Shown here: positions 20,748-37,596 of the stretch, piece after piece
Numbering within the stretch: position 1 is the first letter of the stretch
Layout of the letters: each line of letters begins with the position of its first letter
Assembly (NCBI GenBank): GCA_913041275.1
Contig: CAJWHF010000008.1
Coordinates: 1-37,981, forward strand
Length of the DNA: 37,981 nucleotides
Origin: an uncultured Opitutia bacterium
GTDB lineage: Bacteria > Verrucomicrobiota > Verrucomicrobiia > Opitutales > Coraliomargaritaceae
Direction: 5' to 3'
Program-made: the position numbers and the translations under genes
Notes under the pieces: generated by a model
Databases searched by the model: none
What the model saw: only the letters and a program-made list of their open reading frames with translations
Told to the model about the DNA's origin: nothing

Positions 20748-21554
20748 ATGTCTGTTGAATTTCAAATTTTAGCTTCTAGCAGTGGTGGTAATTGTGCACT
20801 TCTGCATACAGGCCAAAGCAAGATATTAATAGATGTAGGGATATCAGCGAAACGGATCGGAAGACTACTTAAAGATGTAGGAGAGTCTATTGACTCAATA
20901 GATGCTGTCTTTCTTACCCACGAGCACAGCGATCACTGTGAGGGAATCCGTGGGCTATCTAAACGCGCTGACTTACCAGTATTTGCTAATCGTGACACGG
21001 CAGATGCCGTCCAGGCTAAACTTACCAAGCAAGCCAATTGGCAGGTATTTCAGACAGGAACCGAATTTAGCTTTAGGGACCTATCCGTGCGCTCCTTTTC
21101 GCTTCCCCACGATGCCTACGATCCGGTTGGCTACATTTTTAAATGGGGCGATGATGGTGACTTATTTAGCCCTCCACGTAGCTTAGCATGGGTCACTGAC
21201 CTCGGTTATGTGCCAGAACATGTGCGCGAGCACCTTAGAAAGGTGCAAATACTCGTACTAGAAGCTAACTATGACGATGAGATGCTAGAACTAGACAAAC
21301 GTCGTCCTTGGTCCACCAAACAGCGAATTCGTGGACGCCATGGGCACCTATCCAACCAAGCTGCATACGAGTTAATTGAAGAACTCTCAAAAGAAAGTTT
21401 GCTCCAAAACGTCTACTTGGCACATCTGAGTAAAGACTGTAATAATATCGAATTAGTTCGCGAAAAATTCGGCTCTCTATTAGGACCCATTATAATTGAA
21501 ATTGTAGATCCAGAAAGTGGAATCAATCCTCCCGTATCTACGATCAGTAACTGA
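20748..21554 (+). CDS. WalJ/YycJ-like metallo-beta-lactamase-fold hydrolase
   Basis: This metal-dependent hydrolase has HEHSDHCEG at residues 58-66, the HxHxDH site, with a preceding [12 protein letters not shown]. Later metal ligands are plausibly the H of LPHDAYDP and the D of [16 protein letters not shown] and [18 protein letters not shown] near the C-terminus are typical of the YycJ/WalJ group, which is thought to act on nucleic acids during replication and cell division. From the ATG at 20748 it has 268 residues. The open frame begins at a TTG at 20712, which adds a non-conserved hydrophobic stretch. Confidence 0.88.
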
Positions 21555-21564
21555 ATATTATCCT

Positions 21565-22983
21565 ATGAATAATAAAACACATAAAACTAAGATCATTTTT
21601 ACAATCGGACCTGCTACAGATAGTGAAGAGGTACTAGAAAAACTAATTCATACTGGCGTTGATATATGCCGAATAAATATGGCGCATGCGGATCATGCAT
21701 GGTCACGGGAAATAATACATCGTGTGCGTAAAGTGTGCGACAAAGTAGGACGCCACATAGCAATTATGATGGATGTCAAAGGTCCTGAAATTCGAACAGG
21801 GGACGTCCCTAAGGCCTTCGATCTAGAAGCGGGAGATACTATCGAGCTTACCTACGGGGAAGGTACTGGAAGTATATCTCCAGAGGGCGTTTATCGTGTG
21901 GACGTTAATTACCCCGGATTTGCAAGCGATATAAATCCAGGTGATACCGTACTCGTGGACAGTGGCTTAATTCGCCTTAGTGTTAAAAAGATTACAGGCA
22001 CAACTGTACGTTGCGAAGTTATTATACCAGGCTCTATGGGGAATCGTCGTCACATTAATCTACCAGGTGTGCGTGTAAACCTTCCTGCATTAACAGAAAA
22101 AGATCAAGGTGACGTCGATGTAGGTATAGAACAAGATATCGAATTTTTCGCTCTTTCGTTTGTGCGTGAACCAAAAGACCTTGAGGAATTTCATGCCTAT
22201 TTAGATAAGCACAACTCAGAGGCCAAAATAATTGCTAAGATCGAAGATCAACAAGCGATTTCTAATCTGGATGGTATCATTAAGGCCTCAGATGGTCTAA
22301 TGGTTGCTCGTGGCGATTTAGGAATCGAATGCCCTTTCGAAGATCTGCCCGTGATTCAAGCTCGGGCAGTTAGCAGCTGTATACAAGGGACTAAACCAGT
22401 CATCGTAGCCACACACATGCTAGAATCGATGATTGAGTCTCCTATCCCGACAAGAGCAGAAGTCACCGACATCGCTAATGCAATACGTGAGCAAGCGGAC
22501 TGTGTGATGCTATCCGGGGAAACGACCATCGGAAAGTATCCGGTAGAATGTGTGGAAACGATACAACGTATCGCAAAGCGTATCGAAGAAGAACAACAAC
22601 AAGCGCTTCGCAAAGACCTGATCCTGCGTTTACCTCGATCTAAAATGCTACGTTCGGCTGCATACCTAGCTCATGACTTAGGTGGCTCACTAGTCGTCTT
22701 CACCCGGCGAGGTATATTTGCGCAAAAACTCTCTTCCCTAAGGCCAAATGTACCAATCTACGCTTTTACAGATAACAAAATACTCTTCAAACAATTACTT
22801 ATCATGAGAGGAGTTGAACCTTTTCTAATGGACTTTGATCACGACCATGAGACAACAATACAACGATCCTTCGAACGACTAAAGGACGGTAAATGGGTAA
22901 TGGACGAAGATCCTATTGTAGTTATAACCAAGATGTATGCGGGTGAGAAGCTAATCGATAGTACTCAAATTCGCTCCATATAA
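21565..22983 (+). CDS. pyk: Pyruvate kinase
   Basis: Pyk makes ATP and pyruvate from phosphoenolpyruvate in the last step of glycolysis. From the ATG at 21565, ten bases after the preceding stop, it has 472 residues. Motifs: [20 protein letters not shown] (where most relatives have RLNFSHG), [14 protein letters not shown], the catalytic [29 protein letters not shown], and [26 protein letters not shown]. The C-terminal domain ends without a phosphohistidine extension. An upstream start at 21517 would overlap the previous gene and is unlikely. Confidence 0.95.
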
Positions 22984-23086
22984 GAACACTAATTCTGAGG
23001 CATTTACATTGCATCCTACTTGATAAGATAAAATATCTATGTAGCTACTGCTAGTGCTAAAATAAATTTTAAGCCCTATTTTTGAT

Positions 23087-24655
23087 TTAATTAAGTTTTC
23101 GGAACAGGACTAAAGCTGCTAGCGCCAGTCCAGCTGAAGCGCTTACAAACCAATCACCATGACGCGTGTAATAACTTTGCTGCCGCGCCCATTCTTTATA
23201 TTGAAAAATAGTAAAAGCGCCCCCTCCACGAAAATAAATGCTTCCGTCTGAATCGACTAAAACATCGCGAACAGTGCCGTAGCTATCTATCCATCCACTC
23301 CATCCCCCATTACCCGCACGTATTACAGGACGGCGATTCTCTACAGCACGAAGAACTGAGTGCGCGGCGTGTTGCTCAGCTGCACCCTCCTCGCCGTACC
23401 ATGCATCATTTGTTGCAACAAAAAATAACTTCGCGCCCTTACTAGCGCTCTCTCTAGCCAGCGCTGGAAAAGCATCTTCATAACAAACTAAAGATCCAAC
23501 TCGGGTACTAGACATGCCTAATTCTAGGTCAATGAGTCCAACATTATCACCAGGCACAAAGCTGCCATTTAATGGTACTACTTTTCGTATAAATCCAAAA
23601 GGATGAGGGACATATTCACCGAAGGGGACCAACTCTCGTTTAGTATAGAATTGCTCTGATAATCCTGACTCTGGTTCAACCAGGAAAGTACCGTTGCTCC
23701 ATTCACCTGTCTTAGTGTCTTCAGAAATATTACCCATAAGTATGGGCTTATTGATCTCATTGACCAGACGCTCCAGGCGTATGCGTATTTGTTGGCTGCC
23801 AATTATCGGCCAAGGCGTTGCGGACTCAGGCCAAAGAATGATATCACTTTCCAAGGTAGAAACAAAAAGTGTTTGTCGCTCAAGTGCTTCTAAATTTTCT
23901 AAATTACGATCTATTTCCCATTTCAGATCAGGAAGAATATAGGGCTGCACTACAGCTGCAGTTAAGATTTCATCAGTACTATCTCGTGCTGGTAAAGAGT
24001 AAAAGAATACATAGATACAAAAAAATAGAGCGGATAATCCCAAGTAAAGATCCGAGCTAAAAAAGCCCATCCATAGCGCACCTTTTTTTTGAACGAAGCG
24101 CTGGCGTAGTGTTTGCGCCAGACACAGGTTAAAGAAGACAATTAGAAAAGATACTCCGTAAGCACCTGTCCAAGCAGCAATCTGCAAGACAACTGGTCGC
24201 TGCCACTGGCTTAAAGAGAGGGGCGCCCATGGGAACCCCCAAAGGAACCAAGTTCGTGACCATTCAAGTACAACCCAAGCCCCTGCCAACCCAGCAAAAC
24301 AGAGCGCGCGTAACAAGATGTTTCGCTTTTCAATGTGGTGCAGAAGGCTACTACCTAAGTATAGCCAGCTAGCAAAAAACAAAGCAAGTACACCACTTAA
24401 CGCAATGGTGCCGAACCAAGTGACATGCCTTAGCCAAATGAGAATCACGAACCAGCTCAACCAGCCCGTAGCCAATCCAACTATCCATACAGATTGCTGT
24501 GCAGGCTTTGTGTAGAGCCATAAAAAGAGCGGGACAAAAGCGATGTAAGCCGCCTCAGGAAAGTCAAATGGTGGAATTGAAAGCACCCATAATAGAGCAG
24601 TCAGGATACCACAAAATAAGCCCCAATATTTAAAATTAAGAATCATAAAGTGCAT
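23087..24655 (-). CDS. lnt: Apolipoprotein N-acyltransferase
   Basis: Lnt adds the third acyl chain to outer-membrane lipoproteins. The 522-residue protein has about six to eight hydrophobic segments in the first 220 residues, then a nitrilase-like periplasmic domain with the triad E277 (ILWPESATPWP), K339 (TKRELVPFGEYVPHP) and C391 (GSLVCYEDAFP), and a last membrane helix near the C-terminus. These spacings match the E. coli enzyme closely. Its ATG shares one base with the stop of mrdA (TAATG), so the two are translationally coupled. Confidence 0.96.
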   Translation of the reverse strand: MHFMILNFKYWGLFCGILTALLWVLSIPPFDFPEAAYIAFVPLFLWLYTKPAQQSVWIVGLATGWLSWFVILIWLRHVTWFGTIALSGVLALFFASWLYLGSSLLHHIEKRNILLRALCFAGLAGAWVVLEWSRTWFLWGFPWAPLSLSQWQRPVVLQIAAWTGAYGVSFLIVFFNLCLAQTLRQRFVQKKGALWMGFFSSDLYLGLSALFFCIYVFFYSLPARDSTDEILTAAVVQPYILPDLKWEIDRNLENLEALERQTLFVSTLESDIILWPESATPWPIIGSQQIRIRLERLVNEINKPILMGNISEDTKTGEWSNGTFLVEPESGLSEQFYTKRELVPFGEYVPHPFGFIRKVVPLNGSFVPGDNVGLIDLELGMSSTRVGSLVCYEDAFPALARESASKGAKLFFVATNDAWYGEEGAAEQHAAHSVLRAVENRRPVIRAGNGGWSGWIDSYGTVRDVLVDSDGSIYFRGGGAFTIFQYKEWARQQSYYTRHGDWFVSASAGLALAALVLFRKLN

Positions 24656-26610
24656 TAGTATTTAAATGCTAAACCCGCACGCTCAGGATAGTGCTCGATA
24701 AATTCTAAAAAGATATCTTTCGCGACTGGACCCGCAGTCGATCCACCGTGATAACTATCGCTAGAACTAGTGCCCTCAACCATAACAGCTATAGCGATCT
24801 GCGGATCTTCTACCGGAGCAAGTCCTAGAAACCATGCAAGGTTAACCTCTTTACCATGAGCGCGGAAGTCCGCGGTACCTGTCTTACCTGCGATTCGTAA
24901 TCCATCGATTTGGACTAGTCGTCCTGTGCCACTGTTACTAACTACACGTTCCATACCCTCCCAAAGTTCAACATGTTGCCTAGGCGTAAGGCCAATAGGC
25001 TCACCACCATGATCGACTCGCTTAGCCTCTTCAGCAGATAAGGCACGTAAAGTAGGTTGGGTGCGGGTCTCACCTCGAGCAATAGAAGCAATCAAATTAG
25101 CCATTTGTAGGGGCGTGACGAGTAAGAAGCCCTGGCCGATTGCAGTGTTAGCTGTATCGCCGAGCATCCAACCCTCTCCTATTATTTCTCTCTTCCAATC
25201 TTTAGTAGGCACAACCAGACGCCCAGTCTCGTAGGGAACTTCAATTCCAGTTCTTTCATTAAGACCAAAACGTTGTGCTTCCGCACTTAGCTCATCGATA
25301 CCTATACGGAGCCCTTCAGCATAAAAAAATATATTACAGCTACCTTCTATTGCTGTAGCTAAATCAACCAAACCGTGACCATTACGCGCATGACAGCTAA
25401 AGATTCGGTTTCCAAGGGGAAAGACACCCTGGCAATTGTGTTGAGTTTTAGTATTTATGGTACCTTTCCTAAGACCTGCGATGGCTGATAATAATTTGAA
25501 CGTTGAACCAGGGGGGTAGGACAGCTGCAGCGAACGGTTCATCCATGCGCCCTGCTCATTTATCTTATCAAATACTTTACGCGGAATGTAGGGGCTAAGG
25601 TCGTTCAGGTCATATCCAGGGTGACTAGCTATAGCGAGTACCTCACCAGTTTTTACATCGAGGGCTATAGCAGTTCCAGTTCGATTACCTAGAGCAGTTT
25701 CAGCTGCAATCTGAAGATCGATATCGATACTAGATATAAAGTTCTCTCCTTGTTTAGGAGCCTCTTGGTAGAGCAATGCATCTTGAAAGCCCAGGGGGTC
25801 CACTCGCCATATTTCGTGCCCAGTCGTACCAGATAAATGTTCATCAAAAGAACGCTCAATACCAGTCTTTCCTTGCTTTGTTTTAAAGGTGAAAGTTTTA
25901 AGCCCATCGTCTATAATTTCGCTTGGGTCAGGGTTGACCTTCTGCACGTATCCAAGTGTGTGCGCAGCAGCGGCTCCATAAGGATAGTAGCGAGCAGTAT
26001 CAGTGTGTATCTTAATCGGAGACTGCACTGGAACCTGCTCAATCAAGCGCGCATATTGATCTGCGGTTAAATCTTCGACTAGAACGAGCGGTAAGAGTAG
26101 TTGTTCATTAAAATGCCTAATGATTGCTCGCGTGGTTATAGTATCTTCACGCCCTGTTATCACATTGATTTTGTCGATGTAAATCTCGATTACATTCTTT
26201 CTAGCAACCCATTGAAGTTCGTTATAATTTGGTGCCGGAGGAGCGACTCCCGCGCGCTCATTCTTTGGGCGCAGATCATAGGCCTTTCTTATGCGTTCAC
26301 GCTCAGCTCGAATTATCTTCGAGTACTCTGAACGAAACTCGCGGCGCAGGTCATCTAAGTAAACTACAGCCGAATAGTGCGGTCTATTACCAACAAGAAG
26401 GTTCCCCTTTCGGTCGTAAATATCCCCCCGCGGCCCAGGCTTTAAGATCCGACGCTCAGTCTGGCGCTTCTCTATTGCCTCATATTTCTGGTTGGCGATT
26501 AATTGTCTCCAAGCGAGACCTAGAACGAGTGTAATTGAGGCCAGAATTACGATCCAAAAGAAAAATATTATGCGGGGATTTTCACCGCGATGAACGTCAT
26601 ATTGATTCAT
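24655..26610 (-). CDS. mrdA: Penicillin-binding protein 2 (elongation transpeptidase)
   Basis: PBP2 is the class B transpeptidase of the elongasome. The 651-residue protein has one membrane helix at about 13-38, a dimerisation/pedestal domain ([18 protein letters not shown] at 55-72), and a transpeptidase domain with SxxK at 369-372 (PPGSTFK), SCN at 424-426 and KTGT at 576-579. [24 protein letters not shown] matches PBP2 (mrdA) rather than FtsI. It is downstream of mreD in the classic mreBCD-mrdA order. Confidence 0.96.
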
Positions 26611-26628
26611 TCAGTAATATTCAAAACT

Positions 26629-27159
26629 TTAAAGAGTCGGATAATCTTCGGGTTCATCATCCATATGAAAGAGGGCAAAAAGCATACGTTCAAAATTAAA
26701 AAACCAAGGGGATACTATCAAAAGCGTAAGGTGCGAGGCGATTGTAATCACTAGAAAATGCAGCCAAAAACCAACACTTAATAGATACTCTGTACTCATG
26801 CAGATGGAAACAATTACTATACAGAAAAAGTTTATCCCATGTGATAGCAATATAGGATGATAATTCTGATCGGCGCGAAAGCGAATCCGTAGCTGAAAAA
26901 TTAATGCTCCAACAATGAGGAAGAGTATTGTAAACAGCCCAAAAGGTGAAGGTAGAGCAGCGTCACACCATAATCCTGTGCATAGTGTACAAATAAAATA
27001 GTGCTGATGGCGAAGGTAAAGTACGGGAAACACTAACATAGGGCCTAGTAGCAGCATATAAATGGACCAACCAGACAATACTGAATTAGCTATTAGCGTT
27101 AGAAATAATAGAAGTACATTGGATCCAAATAATAGAATGGCTCGTAAATCAAAGATCAT
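26629..27159 (-). CDS. mreD: Rod shape-determining protein MreD-like
   Basis: This 176-residue polytopic protein is almost entirely hydrophobic, with five to six membrane segments and an acidic C-terminal tail (HMDDEPEDYPTL). Sequence similarity in this family is weak, and the name rests mainly on size, topology and position between mreC and mrdA. A PSPFGLFTILFLIVGALI segment fits the usual MreD core. The start can be GTG at 27162 or the adjacent ATG at 27159. Its 5' end overlaps mreC by about 10 bp. Confidence 0.75.
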   Translation of the reverse strand: MIFDLRAILLFGSNVLLLFLTLIANSVLSGWSIYMLLLGPMLVFPVLYLRHQHYFICTLCTGLWCDAALPSPFGLFTILFLIVGALIFQLRIRFRADQNYHPILLSHGINFFCIVIVSICMSTEYLLSVGFWLHFLVITIASHLTLLIVSPWFFNFERMLFALFHMDDEPEDYPTL

Positions 27160-28000
27160 CACTTGGCAAATTGATTGGGTGTAAAGGTATTAAAACAGCG
27201 ACCTCATGGAGGCTTAGAAGACGAGAATCAAGTTCTACAGAACCAGCTTGGAAGATCCCAGTAATGCCGGGTTCCAGCCAAGAGACCTGGCCTATTACTA
27301 GACCAGCAGGAAATGTTCCCCCCAAATGAGTAGAAACCAGTTTAAGTGGCGTTAGTGTGCTAGCATGTGAATCTTTAGGCGCATCACGAACCGAACCAAT
27401 GGGATTACCAAAACCACTCTGAGCCACTCCTTGGTAAATAACTGGACGCCCATCACCTTCAAAATTAGCGGCCATACGAAAGTTAGGGCTAGTAACTAAC
27501 TCAACGCGACTAGTGAAAGCATTCACCTCGATCACACGTCCGACAACCCCCCCTGCAAATACCACGGCCGCTCCTTTTGGAATATTATAATCCTTTCCTT
27601 TACGAATAATAATATGCTGCCACCAGTAGTTAAGATCCCGACGAACAACACGAGCCACTTCATAGCGAAACTCACGACGACTCGGTAAATGTAGAATCGT
27701 TTCCAAGCGTGATATCTCCTGCTCAAGTGATTGAGTTCGCTGGGCACGAAACTGATAATGTGACTTAGCGCGCGCCACTTCCCTACCCGCTTCGATAAGT
27801 TCAACTTTTGAATGACTTCGTCTCGCCCAAAAGCCTTCGAGATCATCTAGATAGGATGTAGCTACCCAAGCCGGCGACTGAAATTCAGTAAATCCTGCCT
27901 TAAGATAAGATTTAACCGTTGTTGGTATGGCCCACCAAGCAAATAAGAAGGCAGCTAACGCAACCAAGGGTTTAATCTTATCGAGGCGTACATTCGCCAC
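27149..28000 (-). CDS. mreC: Rod shape-determining protein MreC
   Basis: MreC is a periplasmic scaffold that activates PBP2. The 283-residue protein has an N-terminal signal-anchor at about 11-27, a coiled coil (about 60-98, LEQEISRLETILHLP at its end), then the beta domains with ARVVRRDLNYWWQHIIIRKGKDYNIPKGAAVV, GGVVGRVIEVNAFTSRVELVTSPNFRMAA and a later LVIGQVSWLEPG. These are typical MreC blocks. The start is GTG at 28000, with mreB ending on its far side at 28010. Confidence 0.92.
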   Translation of the reverse strand: MANVRLDKIKPLVALAAFLFAWWAIPTTVKSYLKAGFTEFQSPAWVATSYLDDLEGFWARRSHSKVELIEAGREVARAKSHYQFRAQRTQSLEQEISRLETILHLPSRREFRYEVARVVRRDLNYWWQHIIIRKGKDYNIPKGAAVVFAGGVVGRVIEVNAFTSRVELVTSPNFRMAANFEGDGRPVIYQGVAQSGFGNPIGSVRDAPKDSHASTLTPLKLVSTHLGGTFPAGLVIGQVSWLEPGITGIFQAGSVELDSRLLSLHEVAVLIPLHPINLPSDDL

Positions 28001-28009
28001 GGTATTACA

Positions 28010-29032
28010 CTATATTTTGGGGTTCCCAGTGAGGTCTTTCAGAAGAAAGGCCAGTTCGTCTAAGACCATACCAGTTCCGTTTGCCACGGCACTGAGCGCA
28101 TCATCAGCGATTACTACAGGTAGACCAGTAGCATCACTAAGTTGTTGGTCCAGGCCCCGAATCAAGGCACCACCACCAGCTATAAAGAACCCACGATCTA
28201 CTAGATCAGCAGATAATTCAGGGGGGCAGCGTTCCAGGGCATTACGCACGAGATCGACTATCGATGCGATGGTATCAGATAGGGCATCGCGAATTTCCTG
28301 CGAAGTAATTGTAATGGTCTTAGGAAGGCCCGCGACTGAATCTCGGCCGCGCACTTCCATAGATACTTCTTCTTCCAAAGGAAATGCGGAACCAATTCTG
28401 ATCTTAATTTCTTCTGCGGTACGCTCACCAATCATCAAATTGTAGGCGCGCTTCATGTACGCTATAATAGCACTGTCTATTTCATCACCACCGACACGGA
28501 TACTCTTTGTGTAGACAACCCCTGCTAAAGAAATGATAGCTACCTCGGTTGTTCCCCCACCAATATCTACTATCATATTAGCAGCAGGTTCGTCAATTGG
28601 AAGACCTACGCCTATTGCAGCAGCCATTGGTTCTTCAAGAAGCACAACATCACGAGCACCAGCTCGTATTGCTGAATCCTTTACTGCACGGCGCTCTACC
28701 TCGGTTATCCCAGAAGGCACAGCGACTATGATTCGGGGGGCTACAAAAGTTTTTTTTCGGTTTACCTTGTTAATGAAATACCGAAGCATTGCTTCGGTGA
28801 TTTCAAAATCAGCAATCACACCATCTTTCATCGGCCGAATAGCGGTAATGTTACCGGGCGTACGTCCCAGCATTTTTTTCGCTTCAGAACCAACAGCACA
28901 AACCTTTTTCGTAGAAGTATAGATGGCTACCACACTTGGTTCGCGAAGAACGATGCCTTTTTCCTTAGCAAAAACGAGCGTGTTGGCAGTGCCAAGGTCG
29001 ATGCCGATGTCGTTTGATAGAATTCCGAACAC
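28010..29032 (-). CDS. mreB: Rod shape-determining protein MreB (bacterial actin)
   Basis: MreB polymerises under the membrane and directs lateral wall synthesis. The 340-residue protein begins [20 protein letters not shown], with phosphate-1 GIDLGTANT at 10-18. It contains [39 protein letters not shown], phosphate-2 [16 protein letters not shown], the [12 protein letters not shown] block and the adenosine loop [11 protein letters not shown]. The start is GTG at 29032. It is first in the mreB-mreC-mreD-mrdA-lnt unit; the 150 bp upstream show no clear promoter. Confidence 0.98.
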
Positions 29033-29182
29033 AGTAGGTAATTGATTAAAATGCTATAAATTTATATTACGTATTAAGTTTTTCTATGAAAGATTTTGAA
29101 TGTCAAACGATTACCACAAGAGTATAAGTCTAAACCAGAAATAGCTAGTTGAACTCCTTGCAATCAGGACATATAAGCAGAT

Positions 29183-30364
29183 TTAACCAAGCAGTTTAAA
29201 GAAGATACGCTTTCCCGCTTGAAAGATTTGTTCACCATCAGAGGGAAAAAGCTCACGATTTGGATCTTCTTGCTTCTCGCCATCTACTTTGACCCCACCT
29301 TGCTGTATTAGTCTTCGTATTGCTCCTTTGCTCTCAAATAGGCCAGATTTAGCCATAATTTCAAAAAGAGGTCCGCTAGCCTCGTCACCTAACAAACTAT
29401 TCCATGTAAATGTTGGCATGTCATCAGGTAACTTATTTCGAGAAAAAACTTGCTCGAACTGTTCTAATTCATGCTTGGCAGACTGCATTGAGTGAAACTG
29501 ACCAACTAGAGACGAAGCCAGGCTCTTCTTAGCATCCATGGGGTGCCCAGTCTTCAACTTCTCAATTTTTTCGGCAGCGAAATCAAGTAGTAAACGGTAG
29601 TAATCCCACATCGTTTCATCACTAATAGACATAATCTTACCAAACATCTCTTTAGGGCTGTCAGTAAAAGCGATATAGTTGTCCGCACTCTTAGACATTT
29701 TCTTCGAGCCATCTAGGCCGACTAAAAGTGGCATCGTAAGCACTGCCTGCTCTAGCTTACCCGCATCTTTTTGCAACGCACGACCGACAAGCATGTTAAA
29801 GAGCTGGTCGGTTCCGCCAATTTCGACATCTGCATTAAGCACTAGCGAATCATACCCCTGAATTAGTGGATAGAGGAACTCGACGATAGAAATAGGAGCT
29901 TGATTGGCGTAGCGCTTTGAAAAATCATCGCGTTCTAACATACGAGCAACTGTCATTTTACGCGATAACTTTAGGCAGTCTTCAAAGTTCATCTTATCGA
30001 ACCACTCACTATTGTAAAAAACCGAGGTCTTTTCTTTATCTAGAATCTTAAATGCTTGGTCTAGATAGCTTTGTGCATTACTTCTAATCTCTTCCTTAGT
30101 TAAAATAGGACGAGTATTAGAGCGACCAGAGGGGTCACCAATTAAAGTGGTGAAATCGCCAATTATAAGAATCGCTTCATGACCGAAATCTTGAAATTGG
30201 CGAAGTTTCTTAAAAACAACCAGATGCCCAAAAGTGAGATCAGGTCTAGTCGGATCAACGCCTAATTTGACTCGCAAGGGCTTACTGCCGTGGAGGCGCT
30301 CCTCGAGCTCAGCCTCCCCAACTAGTGCTTCTGTGTTAAGACGAATAGTATCAATTACTTTCAT
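29183..30364 (-). CDS. tyrS: Tyrosyl-tRNA synthetase
   Basis: This class I aminoacyl-tRNA synthetase has 393 residues. Motifs: LGVDPTRPDLTFGH at about 34-47, where the HIGH equivalent reads TFGH; ILIIGDFTTLIGDPSGRS; the tyrosine-specificity segment with QGYDSLVLNADVEIGGTDQLFN; KKMSKS ending at 226; and a C-terminal S4 RNA-binding domain (SKGAIRRLIQQGGVKVDGEK, about 333-352). The arrangement is that of the shorter TyrZ-type enzymes. Start ATG is at 30364. Confidence 0.95.
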   Translation of the reverse strand: MKVIDTIRLNTEALVGEAELEERLHGSKPLRVKLGVDPTRPDLTFGHLVVFKKLRQFQDFGHEAILIIGDFTTLIGDPSGRSNTRPILTKEEIRSNAQSYLDQAFKILDKEKTSVFYNSEWFDKMNFEDCLKLSRKMTVARMLERDDFSKRYANQAPISIVEFLYPLIQGYDSLVLNADVEIGGTDQLFNMLVGRALQKDAGKLEQAVLTMPLLVGLDGSKKMSKSADNYIAFTDSPKEMFGKIMSISDETMWDYYRLLLDFAAEKIEKLKTGHPMDAKKSLASSLVGQFHSMQSAKHELEQFEQVFSRNKLPDDMPTFTWNSLLGDEASGPLFEIMAKSGLFESKGAIRRLIQQGGVKVDGEKQEDPNRELFPSDGEQIFQAGKRIFFKLLG

Positions 30365-30462
30365 TTTTTTAGTGATCAGAATTCGGAAAGGTCTTCCTTT
30401 AGTTGACTTAACAAATAAACTGATCGCATCCCTAAAGTCGTAAAGAATAAAAGCTAAGAGAT

Positions 30463-31548
30463 CTAGCGAATCGTAATAAACGGCTCAATCGCCCTGTTGT
30501 TGCTAGATTTTGCAACAAAACTATCACGGTCCCCTTTGTTACTAAAAAGATAAAGCGCATATCCGCCCCATCCACCTCCAGAATATTTACGCCCAATGCA
30601 GCCTGAGGCATCAGATAATTTTGGCATACCTTCTTTAAGCTGCATTTTATAGCTTAAGTCGACTGCTGCACCCAGTTTATTCAGGTTGGCCTCTATAACA
30701 CCTTCTTGCGCCAAGTGACCAGCAGCTTCGATCTGGTCGTAGTCACGATCGTTATCCGCATTAGCTGGGGTATCGTGAGCTATTTCAGTATAGTGAAGTG
30801 CCATAAGACCGTTAAGGAAGTCTCCATTACGTTTAAATTCGAGTATGGGTTTTTTGCCGCTACGCCAAACGCAAAGCCCAGTCTCACGGATAATGGCGGG
30901 ATCCTGCCAACCAACCCCTAACTCTAGCTCGGATTCGACCCCGTCACGACCATTAAGTAATGCCCAAGCACCACTACCACCTAATCCTGATTTTTTCTCA
31001 TAATCCCAATCTGCGAGTGAAACGAGCGGAGATATAGCGCAGTTTACGATAAAGCACCCATTGCGAGCATAACGCGGAACATCAAGCCAACCTCCACCAA
31101 AATCAACCCTTAGTGGAGCAAAAACGGGCGTGCGGATTTTGCATACAATAGAAGAGGTGGAGATAGGGGTAAATTCAGGCGGTGTTTTAGGCAGTACCAC
31201 ATACTCAGCACCTACCTCGGCACAAAGTGCGCGCTTTTTATCAGCATATTGGTCGTCTGTTGTTACAACCAAAATATCAGGTTTAATCTTAAGAAAATGA
31301 TCCTTGAAATCTAACCCTAACTCCTGAGAGCCACCAATTACTACTTGGTCCACAATATCGAGTGATTCCATGAGAACAAGTTTATGATCCTGCGGGATAG
31401 AGGACTGACGTTTTTTGTGCTCCCAGAGCACCTCATCAGAGGCAAAGCATACGGTGAGGTGATCACCTAGTGCGCGAGCTTCCTTAAAGAATTGGATGTG
31501 TCCCCCATGAAGAATATCATAACACCCAGAAATAAAGATCTTTTTCAT
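30463..31548 (-). CDS. Bifunctional cytidylyltransferase-like / GHMP kinase-like protein
   Basis: Two domains are fused in 361 residues. Residues 1-135 are a TagD/HldE-type nucleotidyltransferase: GCYDILHGGHIQFFKEAR with HGGH at 14-17, and the closing ISTSSI at 129-134. Residues 138-361 resemble a GHMP kinase: APLRVDFGGGWLDVP (144-158), the phosphate-binding SGLGGSGAW (187-195) and SGGGWGGYALYLF (323-335). The kinase half is only about 224 residues against about 320-340 in relatives, and only about 30 residues separate its first two motifs. A role in making a CDP- or NDP-activated sugar or polyol is likely, but the substrate is unknown. It lies between recJ and tyrS on the same strand. Confidence 0.75.
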   Translation of the reverse strand: MKKIFISGCYDILHGGHIQFFKEARALGDHLTVCFASDEVLWEHKKRQSSIPQDHKLVLMESLDIVDQVVIGGSQELGLDFKDHFLKIKPDILVVTTDDQYADKKRALCAEVGAEYVVLPKTPPEFTPISTSSIVCKIRTPVFAPLRVDFGGGWLDVPRYARNGCFIVNCAISPLVSLADWDYEKKSGLGGSGAWALLNGRDGVESELELGVGWQDPAIIRETGLCVWRSGKKPILEFKRNGDFLNGLMALHYTEIAHDTPANADNDRDYDQIEAAGHLAQEGVIEANLNKLGAAVDLSYKMQLKEGMPKLSDASGCIGRKYSGGGWGGYALYLFSNKGDRDSFVAKSSNNRAIEPFITIR

Positions 31549-31629
31549 ATACTGACTAATAAGTAATCTCTCAGACTATGACAATCAATTGTGTAATTAA
31601 AACAACTAAGGCTACTTCCTATTCACCTA

Positions 31630-33351
31630 TTAACGATCTTTAGAAAAGCGCCAGTCGATCAAAGTTAGCTGTGGATAGCGATTATTACGCCAATAATTCC
31701 AAGAAAAGCGAAATGCCATGTCTACAGCTTTACCTATTTTTGGTGGCTCTCCAAGCTGCCACGCAATGCCAGATATGCCACGCTTAGCACCAGCTTGAGC
31801 GGGCAATCGAAAGCGAAAGTTTCCATCGCCAAAAGAATCGGGTGAGTCTTCTAGCACCAAATCACGAAGACCAAAAATAGGTTCGCGGTTTCCTTGACCG
31901 AACGGATGCAAGCGATCGAGCTCTTCGAGCAATGATTCATTCAAGTCACCCATTTCTAACCATGTAGATATTTCAATGGATGGCTCAGGTAAACCACCTG
32001 GGTAGAGAGCCTCAAGGCTCTCTAAATAGCATTTTGTAAACGCCGCTACATCTAATGATTTAAGTGAAACACCCGCAGCCATGGGATGTCCTCCCCAATG
32101 CTCTAATAAATGAGTACAGCGCTGAAAAACTTCAACTAGGTTTACCGAAGCCACACTTCGTCCCGAGCCTTTAGCGAGCTCACCCTCAGCACCGAGAATC
32201 ACGCAGGGCTTATGAAAGCGGCGACTCACACGACTGGCCACAATACCCACCACACCAGGATGCCAATCCTCGCTAAAAAGTATAATACCAGGCGCATCTG
32301 CAAATTCAGACGCTGCGCGTTGTTCAGCAACTTTGGCTATACCCCGCTCTATGATCTGTCGTTCTTTATTTATTTCATCAAGCCGCTCTGCTATGTTTAT
32401 GCAACTGCGATAATCATCCTGTAAAAGTAGTTCAATCGGTAATGAGGCATCAGCTAGTCGACCACTTGCATTGATTCGGGGTGCGATTTTAAAAGAAATA
32501 TCAGAACTAACCATTTCTTGGCAGCTGTCGATTCCTGCAACCTCAGCTAAGGCGCGAACACCTGCGCGATCATTGGCACGCAAGTGTTTTAAACCAAACC
32601 AAGAAAGAATGCGATTTTCTCCTTGCAAAGGAACTAAGTCAGCCACGGTTCCCATAGCTACAAGGTCTAAATAATCCTTGAGCTGAATTCTTTCTACTCG
32701 AGGGTCATCGGCTTGGCGGCGTAGCTTCAGGAGCCCGTGGAGTAGTTTGAAGACCAACCCAGCTGTACATAAGTTACGCCAAGGGGCATCTTTTTGATCA
32801 TTTACATGGGGATTAATGAAAATGCAATCCTCGGGCGCCTGGGTCTTTGTCTGGTGGTGGTCGACAACAATTACATCGATACCCAATTCGCGCAGATATG
32901 CGATCGACTCGTGAGCATTAGTGCCACAATCAAGGGCTATAAAAAGTTGCGGAATTTGCCCATCGAAAACACGCTCAATAGCCTCAAGACTCAAGCCATA
33001 GCCTTCATCTAATCGTCGAGGTACGCAAAATTTTGGCGTAAGTTCTAGGGTGCGCAACATACTCACCATCTGGGTTGTGCTAGTCACCCCGTCTACGTCG
33101 TAATCACCGAAAACTACGATCGACTCCTTATCCTCGACAGCCTTCTCGATTCGCTTAGCAGCGGACTTGAGGTTTTTTATAGCGAAAGGATCATCTAGTT
33201 GAGCCAAACGAGGACGAAGAAACTCCTCCGCATCTTCTGCTTGCGTTATACCCTGCTCGACTAGTATCCGAGCAACTACATTAGATAAGCAAATGCTCTG
33301 AGCTAGCGTAGAAGCCTTACGCTCATCAATCTCGGTGCAGTTCCAAAGCAT
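31630..33351 (-). CDS. recJ: Single-stranded-DNA-specific exonuclease RecJ
   Basis: RecJ is the 5'-3' ssDNA exonuclease of recombination and mismatch repair. The 573-residue protein has the DHH-family motifs FGDYDVDGVTST (D83, D85, D87) and VVDHHQ (D164-H166). FKIAPRINASGRLADASLP, GIILFSEDWHPGVVGIVASRV, the DHHA1 segment GSGRSVASVNL then HWGGHPMAAGVSL, and a C-terminal OB-type domain follow. The start ATG is six bases after the secDF stop, so it belongs to the yajC-secDF-recJ unit. Confidence 0.97.
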   Translation of the reverse strand: MLWNCTEIDERKASTLAQSICLSNVVARILVEQGITQAEDAEEFLRPRLAQLDDPFAIKNLKSAAKRIEKAVEDKESIVVFGDYDVDGVTSTTQMVSMLRTLELTPKFCVPRRLDEGYGLSLEAIERVFDGQIPQLFIALDCGTNAHESIAYLRELGIDVIVVDHHQTKTQAPEDCIFINPHVNDQKDAPWRNLCTAGLVFKLLHGLLKLRRQADDPRVERIQLKDYLDLVAMGTVADLVPLQGENRILSWFGLKHLRANDRAGVRALAEVAGIDSCQEMVSSDISFKIAPRINASGRLADASLPIELLLQDDYRSCINIAERLDEINKERQIIERGIAKVAEQRAASEFADAPGIILFSEDWHPGVVGIVASRVSRRFHKPCVILGAEGELAKGSGRSVASVNLVEVFQRCTHLLEHWGGHPMAAGVSLKSLDVAAFTKCYLESLEALYPGGLPEPSIEISTWLEMGDLNESLLEELDRLHPFGQGNREPIFGLRDLVLEDSPDSFGDGNFRFRLPAQAGAKRGISGIAWQLGEPPKIGKAVDMAFRFSWNYWRNNRYPQLTLIDWRFSKDR

Positions 33352-33357
33352 TCAAAT

Positions 33358-35910
33358 CTAACTAGATTCTTTCTGACTTTCCCACTCGTAACGCTTAGGC
33401 GTGAACTGACGCTCCTGAACGTGACGACGATCGCCCTTGTGCCACCAATAAAATACTGGGCTGGCAATAAAGATTGAGGAGAATGTTCCCACAAGGATAC
33501 CTACGATGAACACAAAAGCGAAGTCATTGATTACGCCAGCTCCGAAAACATAAAGGGATACAGCGGCCAAGAGAGTTGTGATAGAGGTCAGCAACGAGCG
33601 GGAAAAAACGCGACTAATCGCCAAATTGATAATTGAGCGCAAATCAGTACCAGGATTAAGGTCTAATTCTTCCCTTATTCGGTCAAATACAACAATAGTG
33701 TCATTTATCGAGTAACCCACAATCATGAGAATCGAAGCAAGCATCGGGGCGGTGAACTGCCCACTTACAAAGATATCTAATTGCCCAAAAATTACGAAGA
33801 TACCTATCGTCATGAGCGCGTCATGAACCGTAGCAACGACGGCACCGACTCCATATCCAACTTCAAACCTTAGTGCCACATAAAGCAGAATACCGCCAAG
33901 AGCACAAATTACAGAAAGCAGGGCATTCCACTGAATGTCTTTAGAAACTGATGCGCCAATCTGATTAATACCAGCCTCTTCAAATCCTGCATCTGGAAAA
34001 GCATTTTGCAAAATTTCAAGTGTAGGGCGTGCTTGATCAAAAGGTGTTTGAATCTTAAGCACTTCACGATTTTCGCCGATTAAACTCTGATAACTGACAG
34101 TGATATCATTGATTTCTTGATCAGTCACCGCATTAGAAATTTCATTAGTATCAATGAGCTCGGAATAAGCGATCGTCATTTCGTCACCCCCCGTAAAATC
34201 TTTACCAAGAATATTTTTATGGTGGATAGCTACACTGAAAACACCTACGAAAACGATTAGCCAAGAAGCTACAAAAGCGGGCTTTCTATATCGGAAAAAA
34301 TCGAGTTTCTTTACCGGGAGGAGGCTAAGTCCTAGAATATTAGAAACGCCTATGCGGTGAACAATGAAATCGACAAGAAATCGAGTCACGACAAGCGCAC
34401 AGAATATTGAGGCACAAATACCTATAGCTAAAGTGACACCGAAGCCTTTAACTGGGCCTGTGCCTAGCCATATAAGAATCGATGCCGTGATCAAAGTAGT
34501 CACGTTGGCATCGACAATAGTAGAGGTCACTTTCTCAAAAGCACTTGCGGTAGCGTTCTTAATGCTTTTACCAGTACGAAGCTCTTCACGCAGGCGTTCA
34601 AAAATAAGAATATTAGCATCCACACCCATACCTAATGTCAATACGAGTGCCGCAACACCTGGGAGAGTCAAAGTCGCACCTAGGCTGGCCAGAACACCAA
34701 GAACGATACTTATGTTTATCACGGCTGAAAGTACAGCCACAAGGCCACCAAGCGCGTAGTATAAAATCATGAAGGCAACTACTAGTATTGCGCCATACTG
34801 ACCAGCATTGACAGAACTCTCACGGGCATCAGCGGCCATAGTGGGTCCTACCTCATACATCTCGTCGACTCGAAGTTCAACCGATAGAGGGTTGTTCAGG
34901 ACATTAGCTAGTTCAATCGCCTCGCGTTGAGAGAAGCTACCTGTAATTTGCGCGTTTTTAGAAAGTACGCTCTGTATAGTAGGTGCGGAGTAAAGCTTCC
35001 CATCTAAAACAACGGCAAGAGGTTCACCGACCATATTTTCAGTGACTCGGCGTAATATTTCAGCGCCTTGCGCTGTCATTTGCAGATTAATTTGGAAGCC
35101 TCCTGTCTGCGTCTGGGAAGCAAATGCGTCATCGACGATTTCTCCTGTTGCTTCTGGAATGAGTTTTACAAATTGGCGACGTTCATAGACCTCACCACTA
35201 CGACGATCTTCAATTTCCTCTGCGAGCACCTCATAGCCTACAGGATATCGGCTCTTAGGTGTTGTGTCTGGCCTTAGTTCTGGGTGCACGCGACGGAATT
35301 CAAGTCTAGCGGGCTTTTTGATCGCATCGATCACCTCAGGATTGTCTTTAGTCGATAGGCCGGCTATTTGTATCTCTATCGCGTCTTCGCCACTTGGGCG
35401 TATGACTGGTTCAGCAACACCCATACCGTCGAGTCGCTCAGCCATAATATCTATCGCGTCTTGCAACTGCTCGGCTTGTTCAAACTCGCTTAGGTCTGAC
35501 TGAGCCGATTCGTCGATCTTTAAGGTAACTCCAACGCCACCTTTCAAGTCTAGGCCAAGACGAAGTTGGCTCTGCGCAGTTTTGAGGATATGTTTTAGCA
35601 GAATATCATTGCGCTTATTTTGATTAGCGATATCCGCGACATTAATTTGAGGAAAATACTGAGAAAAATCTATTCCTTCTTCTACGCCGATATCACGTAG
35701 AGCTATAAATAGTGTTGGTGAATCGCCTTGTTCGACGCGTATTCCTGAACGTTTGAGGAGATCTACAAAGTCGGACTCATTAGCCGTCACTTGGCTTACA
35801 ATATATTCCTCAAAGGGTCGATCCTTTAAAGGGGTAACACTCATTACACACCAGAATATGATGGTAGCAGTGAGAAGAAATTTCCAAAGAATGTTTCCGG
35901 ACATGGGCAA
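33358..35910 (-). CDS. secDF: Fused protein translocase subunit SecDF
   Basis: SecD and SecF are joined in one 850-residue chain that uses the proton gradient to pull proteins out of the SecYEG channel. The SecD half has LGLDLKGGVGVTL (118-130), the large periplasmic P1 domain and the conserved membrane block TLGMGVDANILIFERLREEL. The SecF half starts near KKLDFFRYRKPAFVA, has GKDFTGGDEM and the block YSINDTIVVFDRIREEL. Twelve membrane segments are expected. Fusion is known in some Bacillota, Bacteroidota and PVC bacteria. Start is TTG at 35910, or the in-frame ATG at 35904. Confidence 0.97.
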   Translation of the reverse strand: MPMSGNILWKFLLTATIIFWCVMSVTPLKDRPFEEYIVSQVTANESDFVDLLKRSGIRVEQGDSPTLFIALRDIGVEEGIDFSQYFPQINVADIANQNKRNDILLKHILKTAQSQLRLGLDLKGGVGVTLKIDESAQSDLSEFEQAEQLQDAIDIMAERLDGMGVAEPVIRPSGEDAIEIQIAGLSTKDNPEVIDAIKKPARLEFRRVHPELRPDTTPKSRYPVGYEVLAEEIEDRRSGEVYERRQFVKLIPEATGEIVDDAFASQTQTGGFQINLQMTAQGAEILRRVTENMVGEPLAVVLDGKLYSAPTIQSVLSKNAQITGSFSQREAIELANVLNNPLSVELRVDEMYEVGPTMAADARESSVNAGQYGAILVVAFMILYYALGGLVAVLSAVINISIVLGVLASLGATLTLPGVAALVLTLGMGVDANILIFERLREELRTGKSIKNATASAFEKVTSTIVDANVTTLITASILIWLGTGPVKGFGVTLAIGICASIFCALVVTRFLVDFIVHRIGVSNILGLSLLPVKKLDFFRYRKPAFVASWLIVFVGVFSVAIHHKNILGKDFTGGDEMTIAYSELIDTNEISNAVTDQEINDITVSYQSLIGENREVLKIQTPFDQARPTLEILQNAFPDAGFEEAGINQIGASVSKDIQWNALLSVICALGGILLYVALRFEVGYGVGAVVATVHDALMTIGIFVIFGQLDIFVSGQFTAPMLASILMIVGYSINDTIVVFDRIREELDLNPGTDLRSIINLAISRVFSRSLLTSITTLLAAVSLYVFGAGVINDFAFVFIVGILVGTFSSIFIASPVFYWWHKGDRRHVQERQFTPKRYEWESQKESS

Positions 35911-35944
35911 TAAACTATAGGCTTAAAATTGTAGAGAAAAGTTT

Positions 35945-36265
35945 CTAGACATCGCTGGAGGATACCTTCGTGGATACAAAGCTTTTACCGATCTCGATTT
36001 TGGTATTATCTGCGATACGAACAACAAATCTATCATCCTTTACATTTGTGATGGTGCAATACACACCACCGCTAGTAACGATCTCGTCACCACTCTTCAA
36101 CTCAGTGAGCATTTTGTCATGGGCTTTTTGTCGCTTTCGTTGCGGTGCAATAATCAGAAACCACATACCTGCAAAGAGCAGAATAATCGGAAGAAATTGA
36201 CCCAGACCGCCACCTGGTGCGGCTTGTGCGAATTGATATAAAAAAGGTAATTCAGGAATAGTCAT
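35945..36265 (-). CDS. yajC: Preprotein translocase subunit YajC
   Basis: YajC is a small accessory membrane subunit of the Sec holotranslocon. From the ATG at 36265 it has 106 residues. There is one membrane helix (about 20-40, FLPIILLFAGMWFLII) ending in APQRKRQKAHDKML, the family signature, followed by LKSGDEIVTSGGVYCTITNVKDDRFVVRIADNTKIEI. The frame continues upstream to 36352 but the extra part is not family-like. It is 34 bp upstream of secDF, as in most bacteria. Confidence 0.96.
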   Translation of the reverse strand: MTIPELPFLYQFAQAAPGGGLGQFLPIILLFAGMWFLIIAPQRKRQKAHDKMLTELKSGDEIVTSGGVYCTITNVKDDRFVVRIADNTKIEIGKSFVSTKVSSSDV

Positions 36266-36395
36266 AGCATTTTTGATTGTTAAAAGTCCGCAGAAAGAAA
36301 GGGAGTCACCCCTAAATAGCAAGTAACTAATCAATAGGGGGCATAAAGCCAAGGTATCACCTCAAAGCATACTCTTGATTTAAAACATGAAAGCC

Positions 36396-37205
36396 CTAGC
36401 CTGCAAGCTCCATACGACGCAGTAATAGCCGAAGATGTTTATGTGGTTCAGACATAATCGTGACCTCAGCACAGTCAGAATTGAGATCTACTTCATTTAG
36501 GTGGAGTGCAAGGCCTTGATAAGCCGGCAAATTTAGCCCTGACCTCTGCTTTTTAGGGTGAAGTTCTCGCTGGGTTGGAGCTTCTGGGCCATTGTATAGG
36601 GCGTCTCCCAATATAGGAATGCCCAATACAGATGCGTGCGCGCGTATTTGATGGGGCCTAAAGAAGGTCGCTCGTGCTTCCCAGAGGACCCAGCCTTTGG
36701 GTGATTCAGTAATACGCTGAAATTTGGTAAGAGCTTTTTTACCCTTTGCAGTGGAAGGGATCATTTTAGGCTTAACATTATGCGGTAACAGTGGCGCAGA
36801 ACATTCCAAATACGGTTCTTGATTAATAGACTGGGAAGCCGAAATAAATTGAAAGCGAAAAGAACTCTCCCCTGAACCAAAACGATTACGTAAATTCGCT
36901 AGCGCATCACGACTTTTGGCAAAAACCGCAACACCAGATACTGATGGATCGAGATAATACATCGAACCAAAAAGTGTCGCTCCTCTACGAACTAATTCCG
37001 GCTTACCGGCTTCTAGCTGAATATTAAGCGCCCCATCTATATCGGGTACATCGTCCCATGGATGTGCACGCGTACCAAATCCAATCGGCTTGTCTAGTGC
37101 CAGCCAATCGTTTGTTTCCGCTAGTACCGAAAGGCGCAGAGGCTTTTCGCCAAGTATAGGAGGCGGAAAACCAACAGCATTTTTTTTTGATTTTTGATGC
37201 ACCAC
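36396..37205 (-). CDS. RluA-family RNA pseudouridine synthase with an altered active-site motif
   Basis: This 269-residue protein belongs to the RluA family, which isomerises uridine to pseudouridine in rRNA or tRNA. It has LALDKPIGFGT at about 36-45, the active-site region YYLDPSVSGVAVFAKS with D86, and RPHQIRAHASVLGIPILGDALYNGP from H185. The catalytic Asp is kept, but the usual HRLD is YYLD. No S4 domain is present. GTG codons at 37205 and 37202 are the possible starts, right after an in-frame TAA. A run of nine A residues falls in codons 7-9. Its target RNA cannot be inferred. Confidence 0.85.
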   Translation of the reverse strand: MVHQKSKKNAVGFPPPILGEKPLRLSVLAETNDWLALDKPIGFGTRAHPWDDVPDIDGALNIQLEAGKPELVRRGATLFGSMYYLDPSVSGVAVFAKSRDALANLRNRFGSGESSFRFQFISASQSINQEPYLECSAPLLPHNVKPKMIPSTAKGKKALTKFQRITESPKGWVLWEARATFFRPHQIRAHASVLGIPILGDALYNGPEAPTQRELHPKKQRSGLNLPAYQGLALHLNEVDLNSDCAEVTIMSEPHKHLRLLLRRMELAG

Positions 37206-37215
37206 TTATGGATAC

Positions 37216-37251
37216 AAAATACCCTCGATACGGCAAGCGTAAGCGAGGGTA
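37216..37251 (-). terminator. Rho-independent terminator of rpsT
   Basis: TACCCTCG and CGAGGGTA (37220-37227 with 37244-37251) pair perfectly, with an inner four-base extension TACG/CGTA and a small loop. On the minus strand the stem is followed by TTTTG. It sits between the rpsT stop at 37275 and the start of the pseudouridine synthase at 37205, separating the two transcripts. Confidence 0.7.
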
Positions 37252-37274
37252 CTAATGGGGTAGAAATAAAAAAA

Positions 37275-37532
37275 CTACGCAGCTAACAATTGTGCGCAGC
37301 GAGCCTTCTGACGAGCCACTTTGTTGGCATGAACAATACCCGTCTTAGCTGCTTTATCGAGTGCTGATATAAAGTCTCGGGATGCTGACGCAAGAGCATC
37401 TTTGTCGCCAGCAGCGCTAGCCGCATCAACCTTTTTAGAAAAAGTTTTTAGACGACTCTTAATTTGTTTATTTCGCAGGGCACGTGTCTGTGTCTTGCGG
37501 ATATTCTTAACTGCTGATTTAATATTAGCCAT
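37275..37532 (-). CDS. rpsT: 30S ribosomal protein S20
   Basis: S20 binds 16S rRNA in the small subunit. From the ATG at 37532 the product has 85 residues and begins MANIKSAVKNIRKTQTRALRN, the classic S20 start. It ends in the conserved GIVHANKVARQKARCAQLLAA segment. The 14 extra codons of the open frame up to 37574 are not S20-like. The start lies about 65 bp downstream of the RNase P RNA on the same strand. A terminator follows the gene. Confidence 0.97.
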   Translation of the reverse strand: MANIKSAVKNIRKTQTRALRNKQIKSRLKTFSKKVDAASAAGDKDALASASRDFISALDKAAKTGIVHANKVARQKARCAQLLAA

Positions 37533-37596
37533 ATCTGTAAAATTAGGGAGCATAAATTGCGAGCACTCAATCACCCTGTCAAGAGGGAAAGTGTCA

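Follow-up and report, generated by a model that had tools for sequence, protein, structure and literature searches.

The window analysed here, 37,981 nt of contig CAJWHF010000008.1 (assembly GCA_913041275.1) from an uncultured Opitutia bacterium, carries on its minus strand a gene (30463–31548) that fuses an HxGH nucleotidyltransferase (NTase) to a compact kinase half with a predicted GHMP fold. To judge from the sequence, the part that normally holds the adenine of ATP appears to have been lost from this kinase, with the catalytic residues retained. We judge it likely that the protein activates a sugar in two steps for use in glycan synthesis, with two active sites and an altered donor site. 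The analysis shows the domains, the modelled fold, the missing segment, the conserved residues and the gene contexts; that both halves are catalytic, that the steps run in this order and that the substrate is a sugar are inferences.

The coding sequence (30466–31548, with the stop codon at 30463–30465) gives 361 aa from an ATG, and all features described below lie on the minus strand. A preliminary description of the gene had implied the opposite strand, where stop codons occur throughout 30463–31548. Its motif positions (residues 14–17, 129–134, 144–156, 187–195 and 323–335) were correct, and the order it gave, NTase and then kinase, agrees with an N-terminal PF01467 match and a C-terminal GHMP fold. 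Truncation, a frameshift or an assembly artefact was ruled out, because every full relative shows this length and this spacing. The motifs reflect more than chance, because the protein passes the Pfam CTP_transf_like cut-off, has relatives at 18 loci, is under purifying selection and shows the GHMP fold in two separate models. A comparison of the window with a relative in its own family (L001) gave a dN/dS of 0.14 for the NTase half and 0.09 for the kinase half.

Predicted fold of the kinase half

The kinase half comprises residues 140–361 (30466–31131). An AlphaFold2 model of the whole protein, made with 43 sequences, had a predicted local distance difference test (pLDDT) score of 91.7 and a predicted template modelling (pTM) score of 0.79, and a model of the kinase half alone (residues 136–361) had a pLDDT of 89.5 and a pTM of 0.88. 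When compared by VIA-align, residues 138–359 of the whole-protein model matched mevalonate kinase 8teb (Z 20.6, 207 residues aligned), WcbL (Z 19.7, 220 aligned) and FKP (Z 19.3, 220 aligned). The model of the kinase half alone matched WcbL with a Z of 19.6, a root mean square deviation (rmsd) of 3.1, 222 of 226 residues aligned and 21% identity; the values were Z 20.7 for 8teb (207 aligned), 19.2 for FKP (215 aligned) and 16.1 for ForT with phosphoribosyl pyrophosphate (PRPP; 207 aligned). WcbL and 3k85 were among the solved kinases that came closest in sequence and fold. According to these models the second half is a GHMP kinase fold related to the heptokinases (WcbL/HddA) and to L-fucokinase (FKP), which upholds the family given in the preliminary description. 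Residues 3–337 of WcbL contain more than 100 more residues, yet nearly all residues of the compact kinase have a place in the WcbL fold, because 222 of 226 align.

The preliminary description had also proposed separate Pfam searches of the two halves. CTP_transf_like (PF01467) matched the window protein at 41.4 bits, above its cut-off of 21, but none of the Pfam GHMP profiles matched at E ≤ 1. The fusion gene was likewise absent from the 29 matches of a PF00288 search of 11 genomes; this profile misses the gene because much of the stretch that it describes is missing. The window protein belongs to subfamily I of the NTase–kinase fusions, and there are two more distant subfamilies. PF08544 matched subfamily III (3e-9) and, just above its cut-off, one of two tested members of subfamily II. 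The profile of whole FKP, NF009948, reached 12.8 bits against a cut-off of 721, over residues 144–172 only.

Conserved catalytic residues

Conservation was measured in an alignment of 43 rows (A2), consisting of the window protein, 16 of 18 genome-contig loci and 26 of 35 viral loci. The omitted genome loci were L012, truncated at a contig end, and L013, with a short internal deletion; the omitted viral loci were near-copies (L051, L053, L054, L055, L057 and L067) or partial or kinase only (L072, L081 and L082). Residues were mapped to WcbL and FKP by motif and profile alignment, not by coordinates.

GHMP motif 1, APLRVDFGGGWLD (residues 144–156, 31081–31119), contains R147, W154 and D156, which correspond to R592, W599 and D601 of FKP, with R147 and D156 also corresponding to R13 and D22 of WcbL. 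Motif 2, the phosphate-binding loop (P-loop) SGLGGSGAW (residues 187–195, 30964–30990), has G188, G190, G191 and S192 in all 43 rows. The sequence GVGWQDP (residues 211–217, 30898–30918) holds Q215 and D216, the equivalents of WcbL Q162/D163 and of FKP Q761/D762, where the Asp is the proposed general base. Motif 3, SGGGWGGYALYLF (residues 323–335, 30544–30582), has G324, G326, G328 and G329 in every row. Thus R147, W154, D156, S192, E207, Q215 and D216 were all invariant (43 of 43 rows), and E207 is probably the counterpart of FKP E751. The residue set published for FKP (PMC11982464) is Arg592, Trp599, Asp601, Ser719, Glu751, Gln761 and Asp762; as reported there, W599A and D601A lowered kcat/Km for fucose more than 3000-fold, and E751A and D762A were inactive. 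The activity of WcbL was abolished by R13A, D22A, Q162L, D163A or an S118–S120 triple mutant (PMC4691232).

Shortened segment at the adenine site

The P-loop followed the Asp of motif 1 after 30–40 residues in each of 51 subfamily I rows, 49 of which had a distance of 31. In contrast, the distance was 80–115 in all 16 canonical relatives, namely 80–86 in five heptokinase-like and 100–115 in 11 FKP-like proteins; this canonical set came from a motif search among 29 loci scanned, where the pattern missed others. This bears out the remark in the preliminary description that motifs 1 and 2 lie closer together than usual. The other compact subfamilies had a distance of 27 (11 of 11 proteins of subfamily II) and 37 (the single protein of subfamily III). 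The site of the missing stretch, where approximately 50–85 residues of a canonical GHMP kinase are absent, lies at residues 177–186 (30991–31020), as placed by the spacings, a gap in hhalign and a gap in a phmmer alignment of subfamily III with WcbL. When profiles were compared with an HddA-like profile, subfamilies I, II and III gave E-values of 2e-5, 5e-12 and 1e-27, and the position of the first gap was the same in all three. When only sequences were compared, subfamily III aligned with residues 8–39 and 107–311 of WcbL at an overall E of 1e-22, the first stretch alone being weak. Residues 40–106 of WcbL (approximately 67 residues) are replaced by approximately 12 in subfamily III, and the link in the window protein is similarly short.

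A second loss, of approximately 20 residues, was seen between the P-loop and the QD pair, which are only 25–26 residues apart in the window's subfamily. This distance was 45–46 in all 16 canonical proteins, 44–47 in nine of 11 proteins of subfamily II and 46 in subfamily III; no xxQD pattern was found in two of the 11 subfamily II rows, and two rows show SGAQD by eye.

The adenine site modelled for FKP consists of Asp644, Met645, Pro666, Ile669 and Leu722 (PMC11982464). The first four sit 43–68 residues past Asp601 and have no counterpart in the window protein, because its P-loop already starts approximately 31 residues past Asp156. Residue 195 corresponds to FKP Leu722 and is aromatic in most rows of A2 (W in 30, Y in nine and F in one of 43). 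The preliminary description had hinted at a changed activity of the kinase half, and this can now be worded more sharply: the adenine contacts of FKP fall within the missing stretch, and the residues for sugar binding and catalysis are kept. The loss looks old, because the two more distant NTase–kinase subfamilies also have it. In a tree, the compact kinases fell on one side of a branch with a support of 87/97, or 84/87 without the missing columns; the branch was not starred and carries a long-branch warning.

The nucleotidyltransferase half

The NTase half (residues 1–139, 31132–31548) was assigned by PF01467 and by fold comparison. Its HxGH motif, HGGH (residues 14–17, 31498–31509), has H14, G16 and H17 in all 43 rows, and its ISTSSI motif (residues 129–134, 31147–31164) has an invariant S130 followed by T in 34 rows and S in nine; K121 was also invariant (43 of 43). 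In VIA-align, the NTase part of the AlphaFold2 model matched 3glv (Z 17.5 over residues 1–123, rmsd 1.6, 118 aligned), 5x3d (Z 17.1) and 1coz (Z 16.7). The best NCBIfam match was rfaE_dom_II (TIGR02199) with 60.8 bits, under the cut-off of 181.5, and g3p_cytidyltrns (TIGR01518) gave 45.7 bits, under its cut-off of 165.4. A PHROGs search matched the NTase half only, and the top rows from the BFVD viral fold library were limited to the same half.

Distribution of the fusion

The 18 genome-contig loci with relatives (49–93% identity) include Puniceicoccaceae/Opitutales, Akkermansiaceae and one Sedimentisphaerales (planctomycete) metagenome-assembled genome. Within the phylum, 47 of 288 genomes matched a profile of the kinase half, with 56 matching places in all; 55 of these lie in frames of at least 356 aa and retain the fusion, and the remaining one is cut by a contig end. 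The full-protein profile found 75 of 288 genomes, the extra ones being chiefly matches to the N-terminal half; when 12 of the extra loci were read, one held subfamily III and 11 held subfamily II (one of them cut by a contig end). The gene is retained in genomes of 1.3–1.7 Mb (G146, G001 and G108). Many members of the Akkermansia group, such as G033 and G231, have two full copies of the fusion, one of them in a glycosyltransferase cluster.

Among viral contigs, 35 loci matched the full profile and 43 matched the kinase half. Of the latter, 39 have HxGH upstream in the same open reading frame (ORF), two are cut by contig ends and two are standalone (L180 and L193). These two are compact kinases without an NTase in which all motifs are present by eye, residue 195 being Y and H, respectively; the 36-kb record of L180 has no PF01467 match, and that of L193 has one elsewhere. 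Upstream of the standalone kinase in L180, an ORF (129–2321) has HNH endonuclease matches and intein-like segments. The contigs checked (L050, L058, L065 and L083) are phage, with matches to UvsX, a DnaB-like helicase, gp32, a clamp loader and a baseplate wedge. When the viral contigs were queried with single sequences, which reach close relatives only, subfamilies II and III had no relatives there. No named isolate phage or plasmid had the whole protein, there being only matches to the NTase half (33 records each, none covering 80%).

Gene neighbourhoods

In the window, recJ (31630–33351, minus strand; Pfam DHH, DHHA1 and RecJ_OB) lies upstream of the fusion gene with a gap of 81 bp, and the tyrosyl-tRNA synthetase gene tyrS (29183–30364, minus strand; Pfam tRNA-synt_1b and S4) follows approximately 100 bp downstream. 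The order recJ–fusion gene–tyrS is retained in relatives. In the window's own family, the Puniceicoccaceae, the order secDF–recJ–gene–tyrS–mreBCD–PBP2 is fully or nearly kept at six genome-contig loci besides the window (L001, L002, L004, L006, L008 and L009). The wider region, 21517–37574, is a conserved housekeeping block of pyruvate kinase, lnt, PBP2, mreBCD, tyrS, recJ, secDF, yajC, a pseudouridine synthase and rpsT, named mostly by reading the sequences.

Several other relatives are linked to glycan genes. One Akkermansiaceae-group copy is preceded by two group-1 glycosyltransferases and a WecG-type protein, with further ORFs on its other side, and another Akkermansia-group copy has a separate NTase and then a MannoseP_isomer cupin downstream. 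The trio of NTase–kinase fusion, separate NTase and MannoseP_isomer cupin recurs with a glycosyltransferase in phage L050. A Glyco_tranf_2_5 protein was found at 12 of the 35 phage loci and a MannoseP_isomer cupin at four of the 35. At L065 (6079–7455), a 458-aa fusion of a HAD_2 phosphatase with an NTP_transferase adjoins the NTase–kinase gene, and by clustering it is also next to or close by the gene in L069 and L070. Subfamily II adjoins ABC-2 permease genes at two loci, one of which also has an ABC ATPase. The preliminary description placed the enzyme in surface glycan or lipid synthesis; in several relatives these neighbours support a tie to genes for surface glycans or glycoconjugates, and a heptose link is not supported, as set out below.

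At L015–L018, L096 and other Akkermansia-group loci, a second NTase gene lies approximately 100 bp after the fusion, and in L096 a MannoseP_isomer cupin is next. No glycan genes were recognised adjoining the fusion at L014, L011, L003, L099, L100 and L103. On T4-type phage contigs, QueC of the 7-deazaguanine pathway (L050, 1462–2211; Pfam 4e-53) stands beside uvsX, and the QueC cluster was present at 11 of 35 viral loci, which suggests modified phage DNA.

Co-occurrence with the heptose pathway

Of 23 genomes examined, 14 carry subfamily I. Seven of these carriers (G000, G048, G108, G001, G146, G140 and G119) had neither a TIGR02198 match below 1e-80 nor a PF01075 heptosyltransferase, and the remaining seven had strong matches to both the HldE kinase (TIGR02198) and PF01075. 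G000 is 65% complete, G001 99% and G146 98%. A SIS_2/GmhA-type isomerase was present in 12 of the 14 carriers, with no match in G001 and G146. Co-occurrence across the 14 carriers thus ruled out the heptose pathway as a shared role, and heptose is unlikely to be the shared substrate route, because half of the carriers have neither a strong HldE-kinase match nor a PF01075 match, two of them also having no SIS_2 match.

Discussion

HldE and FKP already provide examples of a sugar kinase fused to an activating transferase. The pairing of an HxGH NTase with a GHMP kinase, and in particular a GHMP kinase that lacks the adenine segment, was not found in Pfam, NCBIfam, PHROGs or the open-access literature searched. 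No paper naming the architecture was recognised in that literature, and none had 'glycerol-3-phosphate cytidylyltransferase' together with 'GHMP kinase'. In HldE (TIGR02198, TIGR02199), too, a sugar kinase is joined to a CTP_transf_like NTase, but the kinase is PfkB rather than GHMP, the order is reversed and the window protein stays under the HldE cut-off. FKP (L-fucokinase/GDP-fucose pyrophosphorylase; PDB 9iip and 9iit; NF009948) is also a bifunctional sugar-activating protein with GGWxD and GWQD motifs. In contrast to the window protein, it has a pyrophosphorylase of another fold (GT-A-like and beta-helix; PMC11982464), and 116 residues separate its D601 from G717, as against 34 between D156 and G190 in the window protein, which lacks the adenine contacts. 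The WcbL/HddA heptokinases share the GHMP fold and the counterparts of R13, D22, Q162 and D163; they differ in reading GGG where motif 1 of the window protein reads GGW, in the fused NTase, in the stretch 40–106 that is shortened in the window protein and in that several carriers of the fusion are without the heptose pathway. The NTase half shares its fold with TagD (glycerol-3-phosphate cytidylyltransferase, 1coz) and the cytidylyltransferase of Fom1 (5x3d), but TagD is a single domain and the window protein is under the TIGR01518 cut-off. Finally, enzymes of the ForT/RFA-P synthase type have the GHMP fold (Z 16.1) and a loop that can hold pyrophosphate, but they form a C–C bond with PRPP, and the sugar-kinase catalytic set was not shown to be common to both.

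In the two-step enzyme that we favour, one polypeptide would activate a sugar or a sugar-like polyol. The reduced GHMP kinase at the C-terminus would phosphorylate the substrate at the anomeric or another hydroxyl, with R147, S192, E207 and D216 as putative catalytic residues and W154, D156 and Q215 presumably holding the sugar. The N-terminal HxGH half would then transfer a nucleotide from CTP or ATP onto the sugar phosphate, giving a nucleoside diphosphate (NDP)-sugar for a glycosyltransferase. The phosphate donor may be held differently, because the segment with the adenine contacts of FKP is cut out; ATP could be bound chiefly through its phosphates, or a different donor could be used. Several points weigh against this reading. 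The second Ser of the P-loop is replaced by Gly or Ala (position 193: 26 G and 17 A), and because the protein lacks half of what the sugar-kinase N-domain profile covers, the kinase half may bind without phosphorylating. The gene is surrounded by housekeeping genes (recJ, tyrS, mreBCD) and no glycan genes in the Puniceicoccaceae, where the context tells little about the pathway, and at the Opitutaceae-type loci looked at, its neighbourhood showed no recognisable glycan genes.

It is quite possible, though not our preferred reading, that the kinase is an ordinary ATP-dependent sugar kinase whose adenine site has been rebuilt by the aromatic residue 195, by the NTase domain or by a second subunit. 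The P-loop and the Mg/catalytic residues are retained, position 195, at the site of FKP Leu722 that backs the base, is W in 30 and Y in nine of the 43 rows, and WcbL contacts AMP-PNP mostly at the phosphates and ribose (PMC4691232). However, every published base contact of FKP (PMC11982464) except Leu722 falls within the missing stretch, and the standalone kinases show that a site built by the NTase is not obligatory, with Y and H at residue 195. We consider it unlikely that the GHMP half has stopped phosphorylating and serves, next to an active NTase, as a sensor, a chaperone or another kind of transferase that binds a sugar phosphate or a nucleotide sugar. A large piece of the N-domain is indeed lost, a phosphate from another source could be activated by the NTase on its own, and some proteins of GHMP fold, such as ForT, are not kinases (PMC8183095), but a mere binding domain would not need Arg147, Ser192, Glu207 and the proposed base D216, which are kept in 43 of 43 rows, and the standalone copies retain the motifs.

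A donor without adenine, such as pyrophosphate and possibly the pyrophosphate released by the NTase, is a more doubtful proposal, under which activation would cost one nucleoside triphosphate. The retained phosphate loop and the missing adenine segment fit such a donor, and in ForT the GHMP loop binds the pyrophosphate group of PRPP through backbone amides (PMC8183095), its PRPP structure aligning with our model over 207 residues. ForT is not a kinase, though, no pyrophosphate-dependent GHMP kinase was found in the open-access literature searched, and the standalone kinases have no NTase beside them. With little confidence we suggest the furthest-reaching form of this proposal: a GHMP sugar kinase without its adenine pocket, spread among Verrucomicrobiota and T4-type and other phages, would take its phosphate most simply from the pyrophosphate released by the NTase, so that the polypeptide would need only one CTP (or ATP) per free sugar to make an NDP-sugar and phosphate. 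The least probable of these proposals is a heptose-activating enzyme, a GHMP-based stand-in for HldE that makes ADP- or GDP-D-glycero-D-manno-heptose. WcbL and 3k85 are among the nearest solved kinases, and rfaE_dom_II is the top NCBIfam match of the NTase, though under its cut-off. But motif 1 reads GGW as in FKP and not GGG as in heptokinases, seven of the 14 carriers have neither a strong HldE-kinase match nor any PF01075 match (two of them also no SIS_2 match), and the other seven already have a strong HldE-kinase match, so in those genomes the protein does not take the place of HldE.

The defining feature of GHMP kinases is an ATP site to which two lobes contribute. A widespread lineage in which the sugar-binding and catalytic residues remain while the stretch with the adenine contacts is gone lets one test how small a part of the GHMP fold is enough to transfer a phosphoryl group, and whether a different donor can be used. 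Annotation pipelines will call the protein a bare cytidylyltransferase, because the GHMP Pfam profiles miss the kinase half. The fusion would represent an unnamed route of sugar activation in abundant marine bacteria, gut Akkermansiaceae and marine phages, and its product, the activated sugar, may serve as a decoration of surfaces, virions or DNA.
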